A DNA stretch of 64,000 nucleotides. Origin: a bacterium (lineage in GTDB: Bacteria; SZUA-79; Acidulodesulfobacterales; Acidulodesulfobacteraceae). Below, one piece after another: positions 58,177-64,000 of the stretch. The position numbers and the translations under genes are program-made. The stretch covers positions 1 to 64,000 of the forward strand of contig JAKAOK010000002.1 of NCBI GenBank assembly GCA_021812245.1, read 5' to 3'. Position 1 is the first letter of the stretch, and each line of letters opens with the position of its first letter. The notes below the pieces were generated by a model, which was given only the letters and a program-made list of their open reading frames with translations, was not told where the DNA came from and ran no database searches.

Positions 58177-59334
58177 ATGGCTTTTAATAAAACGCAAAAA
58201 AAGACCATTGCGGCAATGAGTTCGGTGGTAGGCTTAAGAATGTTAGCAGTATTTCTTGTTCTGCCCATTTTCGTCCTTTTTGCCAAAAAATTTTCGTCGA
58301 ATTTTATTTTGATAGGGATTGCATTTGGGATTTACGGATTGTCGAGGGCGATTTTTCAGATTCCTTTCGGCTATCTTTCCGATAAAATAGGAAGAAAAAA
58401 CATCTTATTTTTTGGTATGCTGTTATTCGGCATATTAACTTTTATAATAGGATTTTCTTCTAATATTTACGAACTTATCTCTTTACGGTTTCTGCAGGGG
58501 GTTGCCGCCGAAAGCTCCGTTGCGTTTGCGTTAGTATCCGATACAGTTTCCGAAAATGACAGAGCTAAAGCTCTTGCATTTCTAGGAATTCCTATAGGAC
58601 TCAGTTTTGTCGTAGGGATAGTCATGGGGCCGCTTCTTTCATATTATTTCGGTTATCCGTTCTTATTTTACGTTTCGGGTATTCTGGGGATAATTTCGGC
58701 AGTCTTAATTTTAGTCTGGGTGGAAGAACCCAGAAGCAAGAAAATGTTAAAAGAAATCGAGGTTTCATTAAAAGATGCCATAAAGGTTCTTAAAAACAAA
58801 ACGCTGGCAAATCTCTCTATTCAGGGTTTCTTATTATCTTTTTTTATGACGATTTTCTTTTTCGGTTTACCTTTGATAGTTAAAACGGAACTAGGGACGG
58901 GGTATTATTACAAAGTTTTAATCCCCATGGTAATTTTTTCGCTCTTTGCCATGATGAAAGCATCAAAAAAAGCGGATATGGGATACGAAGTACATCTTTT
59001 AAAGCTCAGTTTTATACTAATGGGGATTTCAAGCATTTTTATGTTTTCCCACCCGGGTAATTATGCGCTGCCGATAATAATCATCGGAGGTATTCTTTTT
59101 TTTACCGGTTTTTCTATTACGGAGCCTATAATGCCTTCTTTAGTTTCTGCTTCATCGGATAAATCTTTCGTCGGCACTTCTATGGGCGTTTATAATACTT
59201 TGCAATTTTCGGGAAGTTTCTTCGGCGGAAGCATTGCCGGTTTATTATATGAAAGCTATTACGGTTTTATACCCGTCATTTTAATCTTATCTTCTTTAAT
59301 ATGCTATATTTTAATAACGAGAATAAAAAAATGA
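58177..59334 (+). CDS. MFS transporter, YajR/AraJ-like
   Basis: A 385-residue, 12-helix major-facilitator protein. The loop 2-3 motif GYLSDKIGRKNILFFGMLLFG is canonical, and RFLQGVAAESSVAFALVSD with DRAKALAFLGIPIGLSFVVGIVMGP fits drug:H+ antiporter 1 type exporters. The substrate is unknown. Its stop overlaps the histidine-kinase start (ATGA), so it may be part of the signalling operon. Confidence 0.87.
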   Translation: MAFNKTQKKTIAAMSSVVGLRMLAVFLVLPIFVLFAKKFSSNFILIGIAFGIYGLSRAIFQIPFGYLSDKIGRKNILFFGMLLFGILTFIIGFSSNIYELISLRFLQGVAAESSVAFALVSDTVSENDRAKALAFLGIPIGLSFVVGIVMGPLLSYYFGYPFLFYVSGILGIISAVLILVWVEEPRSKKMLKEIEVSLKDAIKVLKNKTLANLSIQGFLLSFFMTIFFFGLPLIVKTELGTGYYYKVLIPMVIFSLFAMMKASKKADMGYEVHLLKLSFILMGISSIFMFSHPGNYALPIIIIGGILFFTGFSITEPIMPSLVSASSDKSFVGTSMGVYNTLQFSGSFFGGSIAGLLYESYYGFIPVILILSSLICYILITRIKK

Positions 59335-60785
59335 AATTAGGAAGGTTAAAAACTTATTTTGCATATGTCTGGAAAAAATTTATCGATGTTTCGATAAAGA
59401 TTAAGCTAATCGGTCTTGCTATGCTTACCACCCTTTTTTTAGCTTTTATAATTGTATATTTTCTATTATCTTTTTATAATGGAGAAATTTCACACGACGC
59501 CGAATATATGAGTATGGTTATTGGAAGGCGTATCTCCGAAGATTCGGCAAATTTTATTGCCGGTATGAAATATAATAAGCTGAAAATATTATTTAAAAAA
59601 GAGATTAAATATAATAAAAATATTCTATATATATTTTACCGGAATAAAAACGGGGTTGTTATAGCTTACGCTTTTCATAAGGGTTTTTACGGGAATATCG
59701 TTAAGAATATGCTCTTACTGAATAATAAAAGGAACAGAATATCGGTAGTTAAATATAATAACGACTTGTACGGGAAAATTATGGATGTGTCGTTTCCGGC
59801 TTCAAAAGGCGAACTTGGAGTTGTAAGAGTCGGAATATCCTTAAACCGCATGAAGAATTCCTTTTTTAAAAAAGAATCCCCACTTTTTTTAAAAAATATT
59901 ATAATTATTTTAATATTAATCTTTATTTTTATATATTTAATATTTAAAATTATCGCATGGTGGTTCTTAACCCCCGTAGTAAAACTTCAGAAAGCTGTAG
60001 AAAAGATAAAATCGGGCAATTACGATATTAAAATAACAGCTAAAGGAGACGATGAAATAGGAAAACTTACGAATTCTTTCAGCGAAATGGCTTTAATATT
60101 AAAAGAAGCCGAGCATGAAAGGATAAAAAATGAAGACTTGCGGAACGATTTTATAAAAAAAATAATCGATGCGCAGGAGGATGAGAGAAAAAAAATATCG
60201 CGAAACTTGCACGACAGTTTCGGACAATTCCTTTCTTCATTAAAAATAAGGCTCAGAATGCTTGACGATTGCGGCGACGTAGGTGAAATTAAAAGCAAAA
60301 TCCGTCAAATAAGGGACGACTTGACGGAAGGCATTAATCTTATACACGATATGGTAAAAGACTTAAGACCAAGTATGCTTGACGAAGTCGGATTAATTAA
60401 TGCAGTAAAACAATATATAGCAGATATCGTTAAAAATAATCAACCTATGAAAATAGATTTTTATCCCGTAAATTTTGACGACAGCGCGTTAGATAAAAAT
60501 TTGGAAGTTAATATATATAGAATAATTCAGGAATCGATATTAAACGTTATCAGTCATGCCTACGCCAATTCTATTACTATAATCTTAGAGAGATTCGAAG
60601 GGAAAATTAGAGGCATTATCGAAGATAACGGAAAAGGTTTCGGGTGTTGCGGAGAAGACTACGAACATTTGGGAATAGACGGTATGAAGGAGAGGGCAAA
60701 ACTGTTCGGCGGAGAACTGACCGTAGAATCCGAAAAAAATTTAGGAACGATAGTTAAGTTTTATATTCCAGACATTAATAATTAA
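59331..60785 (+). CDS. NarX-type membrane sensor histidine kinase
   Basis: It has two membrane segments (about 23-45 and 191-214) flanking a periplasmic sensor region of about 145 residues. A HAMP linker follows (LTPVVKLQKAVEKIKSGNYDI). A HisKA_3 domain with phosphoacceptor His294 in RKKISRNLHDSFGQFLSSL comes next. The HATPase domain has N-box IIQESILNVISHA and G-box EDNGKGFG. HisKA_3 kinases pair with NarL-type regulators, and one follows at 16 nt. ATG 59331, overlapping the MFS stop, is preferred to ATG 59301. Confidence 0.9.
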   Translation: MKLGRLKTYFAYVWKKFIDVSIKIKLIGLAMLTTLFLAFIIVYFLLSFYNGEISHDAEYMSMVIGRRISEDSANFIAGMKYNKLKILFKKEIKYNKNILYIFYRNKNGVVIAYAFHKGFYGNIVKNMLLLNNKRNRISVVKYNNDLYGKIMDVSFPASKGELGVVRVGISLNRMKNSFFKKESPLFLKNIIIILILIFIFIYLIFKIIAWWFLTPVVKLQKAVEKIKSGNYDIKITAKGDDEIGKLTNSFSEMALILKEAEHERIKNEDLRNDFIKKIIDAQEDERKKISRNLHDSFGQFLSSLKIRLRMLDDCGDVGEIKSKIRQIRDDLTEGINLIHDMVKDLRPSMLDEVGLINAVKQYIADIVKNNQPMKIDFYPVNFDDSALDKNLEVNIYRIIQESILNVISHAYANSITIILERFEGKIRGIIEDNGKGFGCCGEDYEHLGIDGMKERAKLFGGELTVESEKNLGTIVKFYIPDINN

Positions 60786-60801: not shown

Positions 60802-61458
60802 ATGATAACGGTAGTGTTAATCGACGACCATTCCATATTGCTTTCAACCTTAAAAATATTTTTAAATATGCAGGAAGGAATTACCGTTGAAGGAACGACT
60901 AACGATGCTTCTTATGCCGTCGAACTTATAAAATCGAAAACCCCCGACATCGTTTTGCTTGACATATCTATGCCTAAAATAAACGGAATCGATTTAATCC
61001 CGAAAATAAAAAAAAATTCGCCGAACTCAAAAATACTGATATTAACTATGTTCGAGGATAAGCAGTATATGCAAAAAGTTCTTGAAGCCGGTGCATCCGG
61101 GTTTTTATTAAAAAAAGCAATGGATTACGATTTAGTTTATGCAATAAAAACGGTTGCAAGGGGAGAAACGTATATACACCCTTCCATGCTCGAAGACTTT
61201 ATTGCTAATAAGAACAATGCCTCTAACGAGGTTTTTAGCAGGGAAGAGATGCTATGGGACGCTTTAAGCAAGCGCGAAAAAGAGGTTATGACGGGGGTTG
61301 CCCAAGGTTTTACAAATAAAGAAATTGCCGAAAAGCATTTTCTGAGCGAAAAAACGGTTGCGACGTATAGGTCAAGAGGAATGGAAAAATTAGGATTTTC
61401 AAGCAAGTCCCAATTAATAGATTTAATTTATTTTAATCTAAAAATTTTGAAGAAATAA
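60802..61458 (+). CDS. NarL/FixJ-family response regulator
   Basis: A 218-residue regulator. The receiver domain has acidic pocket Asp8/Asp9, phosphorylation site Asp54 in VLLDISMPKINGID and Lys in LLKKAMDYD. The LuxR-type helix-turn-helix is LSKREKEVMTGVAQGFTNKEIAEKHFLSEKTVATYRSRGMEKLG. It is the partner of the upstream HisKA_3 kinase. Its position directly before the cytochrome genes makes these the obvious targets (inference). Confidence 0.93.
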   Translation: MITVVLIDDHSILLSTLKIFLNMQEGITVEGTTNDASYAVELIKSKTPDIVLLDISMPKINGIDLIPKIKKNSPNSKILILTMFEDKQYMQKVLEAGASGFLLKKAMDYDLVYAIKTVARGETYIHPSMLEDFIANKNNASNEVFSREEMLWDALSKREKEVMTGVAQGFTNKEIAEKHFLSEKTVATYRSRGMEKLGFSSKSQLIDLIYFNLKILKK

Positions 61459-61484: not shown

Positions 61485-61544
61485 TTTCCTACGATATATT
61501 TCTACATTTATACTACAAAAATCAGTATTTATCCTATTTTAAAA
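61485..61544 (+). repeat. 60-bp upstream element, copy 1 (before cytochrome c)
   Basis: It begins TTTCCTAC and ends TACAAAAATCAGTATTTATC-CTATTTTAAAA. It aligns without gaps over the first 41 positions to 62517-62557 and matches almost perfectly in the last 30 (61514-61544 with 62546-62575). It probably contains a promoter and regulator site for the gene 84 nt downstream. Confidence 0.6.
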
Positions 61545-61628
61545 CTCCTTTGCATATATTAAATTTAATTTTAATAGAAATAAACTTGTCGCTTAAACTT
61601 AATAACTTAAAATAAAGGTGGATGATTT

Positions 61629-61982
61629 ATGAAAAAGCTATTGTTAATAGTAATTTTTATAATTGCGGCCGTAGCGGTAAACCCTACTAACGGGAACGCA
61701 ATCACTGGTAAGCAATTATTTAAGAAGGAAGAATGCGGCTTATGCCATGCTATTAATAAAAAAGGTGGGGCGATGATGGGTCCGAATCTTTCCGTTATCG
61801 GCAAAATCAGATCTTATTCTTGGATTAGAAGGCAGATAAGAAATCCCAAATTAAATTTTTTTACCCCTAATTCTTTTGTTATTTTTGACGGAAAGGTATA
61901 CGAATCTAATATGCCGGCAAATAAAAAAATAAGCGCAAATAATCTCAATAAACTTTCGCAATATTTAAAATCCTTAAAATAA
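61629..61982 (+). CDS. Small periplasmic cytochrome c (monoheme)
   Basis: A 117-residue class I-like cytochrome. The signal peptide (basic MKKLLL, cleavage near GNA, residue 24) directs it to the periplasm. The heme motif is Cys36-Gly-Leu-Cys39-His40, and the probable distal Met is in ESNMPANKK. GPNLSVIG and the C-terminal LNKLSQYLKSLK helix are typical. It is a paralogue of the next gene. The Shine-Dalgarno is AAAGGTGG. It may donate electrons to the cytochrome cd1-type protein downstream. Confidence 0.92.
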   Translation: MKKLLLIVIFIIAAVAVNPTNGNAITGKQLFKKEECGLCHAINKKGGAMMGPNLSVIGKIRSYSWIRRQIRNPKLNFFTPNSFVIFDGKVYESNMPANKKISANNLNKLSQYLKSLK

Positions 61983-62026
61983 CAAGAAAATAACAATTAA
62001 ATTTAAATTATTACCTATGGGGGTAA

Positions 62027-62389
62027 GTGAAAATAAAAAGAGGCAAAATTATATTGGGGGCATTAATTCTTTTTTTCTTAATTTTATACAGCGGTAAAGC
62101 GGTTTTTGCGATGTCCGGAAGAGCCGTTTTTAAATCGAAAGGGTGCATAAACTGTCATACTATAAACGGTAACGGCGGTAAGGCAGGCCCTAATCTTGGC
62201 AACATAGGAGCCAAAAAAAGTTTTACTTGGTTAAAGGATTTTATTAAAAACCCAGATAAATATTTTAACCCGGGAAGCAGTGCCGTTATAAACGGAAAGA
62301 GCTACATAATTATGATGCCGGCGTTTAAAAATATGCTTATAAGGTCGGAACTCAATTCGGTAACAAATTATTTATCATCGTTAAAATAA
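62027..62389 (+). CDS. Small cytochrome c, paralogue of the preceding one
   Basis: A 120-residue monoheme cytochrome c with a signal or anchor (residues 7-28). The heme motif is Cys40-Ile-Asn-Cys43-His44, followed by GPNLGNIGAKKSFTWLKDFIKNP, and the candidate distal Met is in IMMPAFKNM. It shares with its neighbour the GPNL..IG, W...I.NP and YLxSLK patterns, so the pair arose by tandem duplication. The start is GTG 62027 after GGGGGTAA. Confidence 0.9.
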   Translation: MKIKRGKIILGALILFFLILYSGKAVFAMSGRAVFKSKGCINCHTINGNGGKAGPNLGNIGAKKSFTWLKDFIKNPDKYFNPGSSAVINGKSYIIMMPAFKNMLIRSELNSVTNYLSSLK

Positions 62390-62516
62390 AAAGTAGAATT
62401 CGTAATTTAGTAATTTTGACATTTAAAAAAATAGCAAGTTAAAGGTTTTTGTTTACGATACCCCACATTTTTTTATCTAAAATTAAATCCTCAAATAAAA
62501 ATGCGATATAGGTTTT

Positions 62517-62575
62517 TTTCCTACATTTCATTTCAAAATTTATCTTACAAAAATCAGTTTTTATCCTATTTAAAA
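62517..62575 (+). repeat. 60-bp upstream element, copy 2 (before the cd1-type gene)
   Basis: It is near-identical to 61485-61544: TTTCCTAC start, TTTAT..TACAAAAATCAG core and TTTATCCTATTTAAAA end. It is 140 nt upstream of the cytochrome cd1-type ATG. The rest of the 62390-62714 gap holds a small GTCCCG/CGGGAC hairpin (about 62637-62653) and three TAGATTATG repeats ending at the start codon. Confidence 0.6.
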
Positions 62576-62714
62576 TATATAAACGGCGTATTAGACTTAA
62601 AAACTATAGAATGTAAGTTTAATTTTACCTCCTTATGTCCCGTTCCGGCGGGACAACGAGTATATAAAGAAGTATATAATAAGACTAGATTATGTTAGAT
62701 TATGTAATTAGATT

Positions 62715-64000
62715 ATGAGACTTTTTAAAATTATATCTTCGATTTCAATTACCTTTTTGTTAATATTTTTTTATTTCGTAGTTTCTATAGATGTCCAAAA
62801 TGCACAATCTATGGAGCCAAAAGAAGTTCTTGGACGTAAAATTTACATCCAAAGCGGGTGTTTCGTATGCCATGGAGAACACAGGTTGGGCAAGTCGGCG
62901 TCACCCCTTATTCCTCAATTTATCGGTCGGTTTCGGTACGGCAAACTTAAAAACATTATTGCTAAAGGTCTGTTTCCCATACCTATGCCCGCTTTTAAGC
63001 AGCTGTCGGGTAAAAATTTATCCGCTTTAATAACTTATTTGAGAAAAAGAAAACCTTCGTCTCAACTCGGATGGACCGAAAAAGACATAAAAAATAGTCT
63101 GATTAAATACGTTAACTATAATACAAATTCAATTATCCCCGATTCAAATATCAAACCGGTAAACGTTAAAAACCTCATAGCCGTAGTCGAGGGCGGAACC
63201 GGAAAGGCTTGGATAATGAAAGGAACGAAGATACTTAATAAGTTTAATTTCGGTAATATCCACGGAGGATTAAAGTATTCCCCTTCAGGAAGATATTTAT
63301 ATCTTCCTTCTAATACCGGATACGTCGGCAAATACGACTTTTATAGAGGAAAGATTGTTTATAAAGTAAGAGCCTGCCGTTATTTAAGGAATATCTCCCT
63401 TTCGGAAGGGGGAAAATACGTTTTAGCCGCCTGCCGGCTTCCTAAAGAGATAGTCGTATTAAATTCGAATAACTTAAAGCCCGAAAAAATAATACCTTTA
63501 AAGCACGGTATATCCGTAATTTACGGTTTATTCGGAAATAATAAGGCCGTCTTTTCTTTTATGCATAAGCCTTATATAGGCATACTGAATACCGATACGT
63601 TTAACCTTTCTTATTATAAAATCCCCGTCCCCTTCCAAGACTTCTTCGTAGACCCTTTAGACGAATACGCCGTCGGGGGTTCTTTCAATAAAGGAGAACT
63701 CTATGTTTTCAGTCTTAAAGCCAAAAAAATAATATGGCGTCATAGTTCAAACGGAATAGCCCATCCGGCGGGAGCGGGTTTTTGGTTTCATAAAGGAAGG
63801 TTTTACTTTGCCCTTACGAGTTTAAATGCCCCTTACGTTTCGGTATGGAGGATGTATAACTGGAAGTTTATAAAAAACGTATATACCGGAGGAGCCGGCT
63901 TCTTCGTAAAGACCAACCCATATACCGAATATCTCTGGGTCGATAACAGTTCGGATGCGGACGTGCTTATAAATAAATATAATTTCCGTACTAAAAAGTT
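62715..64000 (+). CDS. Cytochrome cd1-type protein (NirS/NirN-like), N-terminal part
   Basis: An open frame running off the right edge with 428 codons seen. A signal or anchor segment (about 5-26) is followed by a cytochrome c domain with Cys49-Phe-Val-Cys52-His53 and a probable Met ligand in IPMPAFKQLSG. From about residue 150 it becomes a d1-type beta-propeller: SPSGRYLYLPSNTGYVGKYDF, VRACRYLRNISLSEGGKYVLAAC and IVVLNSNNLKPEKIIP match blades of NirS/NirN/NirF. His183 in NIHGGLKYSPSGRY is placed where NirS has its heme d1 ligand. It could be nitrite reductase, NirN-like dehydrogenase or a related protein; the end is needed to decide. Confidence 0.78.
   Translation, partial: MRLFKIISSISITFLLIFFYFVVSIDVQNAQSMEPKEVLGRKIYIQSGCFVCHGEHRLGKSASPLIPQFIGRFRYGKLKNIIAKGLFPIPMPAFKQLSGKNLSALITYLRKRKPSSQLGWTEKDIKNSLIKYVNYNTNSIIPDSNIKPVNVKNLIAVVEGGTGKAWIMKGTKILNKFNFGNIHGGLKYSPSGRYLYLPSNTGYVGKYDFYRGKIVYKVRACRYLRNISLSEGGKYVLAACRLPKEIVVLNSNNLKPEKIIPLKHGISVIYGLFGNNKAVFSFMHKPYIGILNTDTFNLSYYKIPVPFQDFFVDPLDEYAVGGSFNKGELYVFSLKAKKIIWRHSSNGIAHPAGAGFWFHKGRFYFALTSLNAPYVSVWRMYNWKFIKNVYTGGAGFFVKTNPYTEYLWVDNSSDADVLINKYNFRTKK

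Follow-up and report, generated by a model that had tools for sequence, protein, structure and literature searches.

To our knowledge, the nitrite reductase NirS is the sole enzyme that uses the rare cofactor heme d1, and NirN, in the organisms that bear NirS, is a maturation enzyme and not a reductase. Heme d1 itself is described in a published account as occurring only in cytochrome cd1 (PMC6054029). Nitrite is held in the NirS of P. aeruginosa by His327 and His369 (PMC7278500), while on the biosynthetic side NirF and NirC jointly make dihydro-heme d1 and NirN completes heme d1 (PMC13168839). The corresponding genes form compact clusters, as in Kuenenia, where they stand unfused in the order nirS-nirC-nirN-nirJ-nirF (PMC6423088). 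The locus described here has the NirN(C)-NirJ-NirF order in common with Kuenenia and with five further clusters listed below; however, no nirS was found in the family to which it belongs, small cytochromes c taking its place, and TtrBCA-like genes follow on the 3' side. The gene at its center very probably encodes a NirN-type fusion protein within a NirS-less heme d1 cassette.

The window, by which we mean the whole 64,000-nucleotide stretch that was analyzed, covers positions 1-64000 of contig C1, which is 118 kb long, such that window and contig coordinates are the same; the source is a metagenome-assembled genome of 1.78 Mb and 87% completeness. Toward its end, on the + strand, lie a sensor histidine kinase with two membrane segments and HAMP, HisKA_3 and HATPase domains (59301..60785), a response regulator, RR1, with a receiver and a LuxR/GerE HTH (60802..61458; both by Pfam), and two small monoheme cytochromes c that are 41% identical to each other, namely a periplasmic one (61629..61982; PF00034, 4.2e-11) and a second with a GTG start (62027..62389; PF00034, 3.7e-12). 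The gene at issue follows on the same strand: it occupies 62715..64000 in the window, by the end of which it is cut, and contig 62715-64469 as a whole, coding for 584 aa. An operator-like motif on this strand lies 5' of the cytochrome genes (TACAAAAATCAGTATTTATCCT, 61514..61535), where it is conserved across the family loci and absent from a reversed-pattern control, and a motif search finds it again 5' of the c-d1-c operon (TACAAAAATCAGTTTTTATCCT, 62546..62567). The sequence-only reading had recognized paired tandem monoheme cytochromes c preceding a reading frame with a heme c and a D1 propeller, which begins at 62715 and is still open where the window ends, as well as a HisKA_3 kinase and a NarL/LuxR-type regulator directly 5', and had quoted the peptides SPSGRYLY, RACRYLR and YLRNISLSEGGKYVL; all of these are present in the sequence and its translation. 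Its remark that no heme d1 synthesis genes occur in the window is literally true but misleading: following the contig past base 64000, as it had proposed, reveals that the next two genes past the cut encode a NirJ-like radical SAM protein (contig 64469-65572) and, overlapping it, a NirF-like protein (contig about 65540-66642; the ORF covers 65467-66642 and the true start is uncertain). Farther beyond the window the contig carries TtrB-like (66680-67861), NrfD/TtrC-like (67895-69151) and TtrA-like (69190-72297) genes, a second regulator, RR2, with 60% identity to RR1 (72408-73079), and a diheme cytochrome c gene (73323-73985).

The complete protein of 584 residues, hereafter the c-d1-c protein, combines an N-terminal heme c, a d1 propeller and a second, C-terminal heme c, with CxxCH motifs at residues 49 and 506. 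Pfam Cytochrom_D1 matches it at 127.8 bits (E 4.9e-37) and hence not by chance; the C-terminal heme c domain, made up of the final 97 residues, was outside the view of the sequence-only reading. The best PDB match is NirN (6rtd) with E 2e-47, as against 2e-9 for NirS, and in a tree of 37 d1-propeller proteins all 10 copies from the family fall within the NirN clade (support 100/98), with NirS forming a separate clade (99/91) and NirF also standing apart. A fold search ranks NirN best as well, using a weak AlphaFold model of a close homologue (shallow alignment, pLDDT 55). With the dihydro-heme d1 dehydrogenase NirN of Pseudomonas aeruginosa (PDB 6RTD/6RTE) the protein shares, besides the clade, the N-terminal heme c, the propeller and three aligned histidines, His183, His350 and His439, which are invariant in the 10 family sequences and putatively correspond to the catalytic d1-site residues. 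It departs from NirN in its additional C-terminal NirC-like heme c, in coming from a genome without NirS and in two family-fixed features. His350 is followed by a proline, giving the HP seen in NirS in place of the HL of typical NirN, and residue 401 is Asn (Asn401), a position occupied by His in every NirN compared and in every NirS compared but one. The likeness to NirS extends to the c plus d1 domain plan, the proximal His and one of the two distal histidines that the earlier reading had singled out for inspection, His350 being the equivalent of His369; but the alignment places no His at the position of the other, His327. The C-terminal domain gave no significant match to NirC itself in the PDB. 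It resembles a stand-alone cytochrome 5' of NirJ in G346 (44% identity over 75 residues) and a domain placed before NirJ-NirF on an Aquificaceae contig, and on account of these resemblances the c-d1-c protein is read as a putative fusion of NirN with NirC, the latter being otherwise a small stand-alone cytochrome c that takes part in making heme d1.

Our comparative sample comprised 386 genomes, 30 of them from the window's family. The cassette, consisting of the fusion, NirJ and NirF genes, is found in 11 of these 30, and at all 11 loci the order is fusion-NirJ-NirF-TtrBCA (one contig ends within TtrA), with cytochromes c at the place of NirS. Outside the family, full-length c-d1-c proteins occur in five genomes from four families of the sample (G232, G362, G239, G292 and G156), and in each of the five the fusion gene is directly 3' of a NirS gene and 5' of NirJ and NirF. 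The NirS beside the nearest of these non-family fusions has 789 residues, with two additional N-terminal heme c and three CxxCH motifs (L086:4374-6743, L087:2323-4692). Across the 30 family genomes, a NirS query retrieved only the fusion gene in the 11 cassette genomes and had no match in the remaining 19; since completeness reaches 96% or more in four of the 11, this absence is not due to the gaps of one assembly. Copper NirK yielded three weak matches in the same 30 genomes, none above the cut-off, and the match in G022 was rejected, the protein on examination being NosZ. The three cassette genes are under purifying selection (dN/dS 0.08-0.22). Searches of the open-licence literature turned up no description of a nir cassette lacking NirS, and the main text of a paper on the acidophile order Ca. 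Acidulodesulfobacterales (PMC6776010), to which the family may belong, mentions neither nir genes nor nitrite.

Taken by gene content, NirJ, NirF and NirN/NirC cover the steps past 12,18-didecarboxysiroheme. The NirJ-like protein has TIGR04051 as its best model, at 349 bits and thus below the curated cut-off of 515, whereas the NirF-like protein finds its best PDB match at 3e-33. Siroheme decarboxylase is represented in the window genome by an AhbA-AhbB fusion encoded on contig 10, such that this genome has all of these components together, NirJ with the score just noted. From this gene-content check, which covered NirJ, NirF, NirN/NirC and the siroheme decarboxylase, we infer that heme d1 is probably made in these bacteria. 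AhbAB was considered as a cassette-specific marker and rejected, as 26 of the 30 family genomes carry it irrespective of the cassette; it probably also feeds heme b, given that AhbC and an AhbD-like protein, both belonging to the alternative heme pathway, are encoded in G007.

Of the three genes downstream of the cassette, the TtrA-like and TtrB-like ones score highest against the named models for TtrA and TtrB, and tetrathionate reductase TtrBCA has the gene order B-C-A and the domain content in common with the three; however, the scores fall far below the curated cut-offs (574 bits against 1750 for the TtrA-like protein). TtrBCA also exists without the cassette, as in G016, where the order is kinase, regulator, two small cytochromes c, TtrB, TtrC and TtrA. 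It would seem that a TtrBCA locus was there before the d1 genes entered it, and that the small cytochromes may have served TtrBCA first and may belong to it; hence, the idea of the sequence-only reading that these cytochromes are dedicated donors is uncertain. Further, paralogous TtrBCA loci that lack the heme d1 genes (L169-L172, in G008, G022, G013 and G016) mostly have a kinase-regulator pair of their own, and several have a TorD-like chaperone gene. The label NarX-like holds for no more than the kinase core, which is nearest NarQ/MctS but far below their cut-offs (NarQ best, at 126 bits against 553), and the regulator likewise reaches 116 bits against 250 for NarL/NarP.

The operator-like motif TACAAAAATCAGNNTTTNNCCT (also written TACAAAAATCAG) lies in most loci about 55-230 bases 5' of three genes, those for the first cytochrome, the fusion protein and the diheme cytochrome. 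The 30 family genomes contain 29 sites, distributed over 11 genomes, as against 0 for the reversed control; on contig C1 there are sites beyond the window at 73124, 99150 and 110324. The motif is nearly confined to genomes that bear the cassette, and only three sites fall outside the cassette locus. One is in G019, at the end of a contig, with a regulator and a diheme cytochrome next to it; the other two are in the window genome, of which one precedes a secreted-cytochrome/porin-cytochrome cluster and the other a small cytochrome beside a bc1 complex. The cluster (C1 99224-110217; L007, L052) codes for secreted multi-domain cytochromes c and a monoheme porin-like protein that, by its architecture, may resemble Cyc2/Cyt572. 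In G010 the cluster is situated inside the d1 locus; the porin-cytochrome was rejected as an obligate partner of the cassette, since nearly all of the family has it.

A further association concerns NO reduction. COX1-family matches of NO reductase size (~760 aa) occur in 7 of the 11 cassette genomes as against 3 of the other 19 (Fisher p 0.012, uncorrected for relatedness of the genomes). The protein of G022 is a quinol NO reductase (qNOR; PDB match 9e-173), the gene of which adjoins NosZ, NosR and NosD, and homologues in G003, G007, G012, G005 and G010 are 84-86% identical to it; four cassette genomes, including the window genome, which is only 87% complete, gave no match. As the nitrite reductase searches, which covered NirS and NirK, found neither, and a protein of NO reductase size is present in 7 of the 11 cassette genomes, the fusion protein is the sole candidate found for an NO-forming nitrite reductase. 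RIC is an NO-damage repair protein, and in several genomes the NO reductase adjoins RIC and an Rrf2 regulator (L050 in G022, L174 in G003, L175 in G007), which suggests NO detoxification and weakens the argument for nitrite reduction.

Bringing these strands together, we advance the following mechanism. The fusion would be a periplasmic protein in which a NirN-type dihydro-heme d1 dehydrogenase carries a C-terminal NirC-type cytochrome; along with NirJ, a cytoplasmic radical SAM enzyme, and NirF, a periplasmic propeller, it would form a compact heme d1 cassette that dispenses with NirS, draws on siroheme and the siroheme decarboxylase AhbAB from elsewhere in the genome and sits inside a TtrBCA-like molybdoenzyme locus with its own two-component system. 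The fusion protein would finish heme d1, retain the cofactor and act as a d1 enzyme itself, most likely reducing nitrite to NO with electrons from the adjoining cytochromes c, and the NO would be cleared by the quinol NO reductase present in many of these genomes. The best explanation, in our judgment, is that these bacteria make heme d1 and that the fusion protein itself is its user, probably reducing nitrite to NO in the periplasm; we offer it tentatively and with a confidence a little short of even. Against the reductase part stand the maturation role of NirN in NirS-bearing organisms, the missing His327, the RIC/Rrf2 neighbors, the four cassette genomes without an NO reductase match and the NirJ score of 349 against 515 bits.

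The placement in the NirN clade and the retained catalytic histidines would equally suit a purely biosynthetic protein, which completes heme d1 and passes it to an apoprotein not recognizable as NirS, and the relatives in other families do work beside a separate NirS. Such a recipient is hard to find, however: the other d1-type propellers of the window genome are only NirF and an unrelated-looking YVTN-type propeller, and the NirS query matches nothing in the family besides the fusion, so that we regard this reading as rather unlikely, if a serious contender. Somewhat more doubtful is a heme d1 enzyme that acts on something other than nitrite, partnered by the TtrBCA-like complex (sulfur oxyanions) or by an iron-oxidation electron chain. 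The TtrBCA-like genes of the same operon at 11 of 11 loci speak for it, as do the motif common to the porin-cytochrome cluster and the cytochrome beside bc1, the position of that cluster in G010, and Asn401 and the HP after His350, which are fixed only in the window's family; but TtrBCA is also found without d1 genes, almost the whole family has the porin-cytochrome, and we know of no d1 chemistry with sulfur or iron substrates. The fullest version, a stand-alone heme d1 enzyme wired to both the molybdoenzyme complex and iron-oxidation-type cytochromes, is a shade more doubtful again; if true, heme d1 would for the first time be seen at work in something other than a nitrite reductase.

Two further readings fare considerably worse. 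A gene order equal to that of known nir clusters minus nirS, and a patchy presence in 11 of 30 genomes, could betray a nir operon that has lost NirS and persists as a functionless relic, but the purifying selection on all three genes disfavors this, as do the invariant catalytic residues, the conserved regulatory motif and the spread over at least three genera, which make it very improbable. Most improbable of all is the proposal of the sequence-only reading that the protein is a divergent but true NirS nitrite reductase: although it has c and d1 domains, retains the equivalents of His182 and His369 and shows HP at the second site as NirS does, its nesting in the NirN clade by tree (100/98), the far better matches to NirN in searches, the missing His327 equivalent and the occurrence of homologues beside a separate NirS all disfavor that affiliation. 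The alternative offered by the same reading, a cd1-like redox enzyme, survives with respect to fold and cofactor machinery, and what it named as evidence against a nitrite reductase role was not encountered: the propeller is closed, the protein retains one of the distal histidines, and genes of d1 synthesis come next on the contig.

In a bacterial family that lacks NirS, a d1 cassette that is conserved, under selection and apparently regulated implies that the d1 enzyme is a different or a re-purposed one, whereby a protein class seen as a maturation factor becomes a candidate respiratory enzyme. In practical terms, surveys that equate D1-domain matches with nirS would wrongly label these bacteria as NirS denitrifiers.

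We also considered the cassette as the maker of the unusual heme of Leptospirillum cytochrome 579 and found no link; that chromophore is covalently held and has a pyridine band at 567 nm, unlike siroheme (557) and d-type hemes (618) (PMC8126622). Finally, in G026 and G005 the small cytochrome and c-d1-c genes are separated by an inserted gene for another radical SAM protein (L043:14117-15223, L045:14802-15860).
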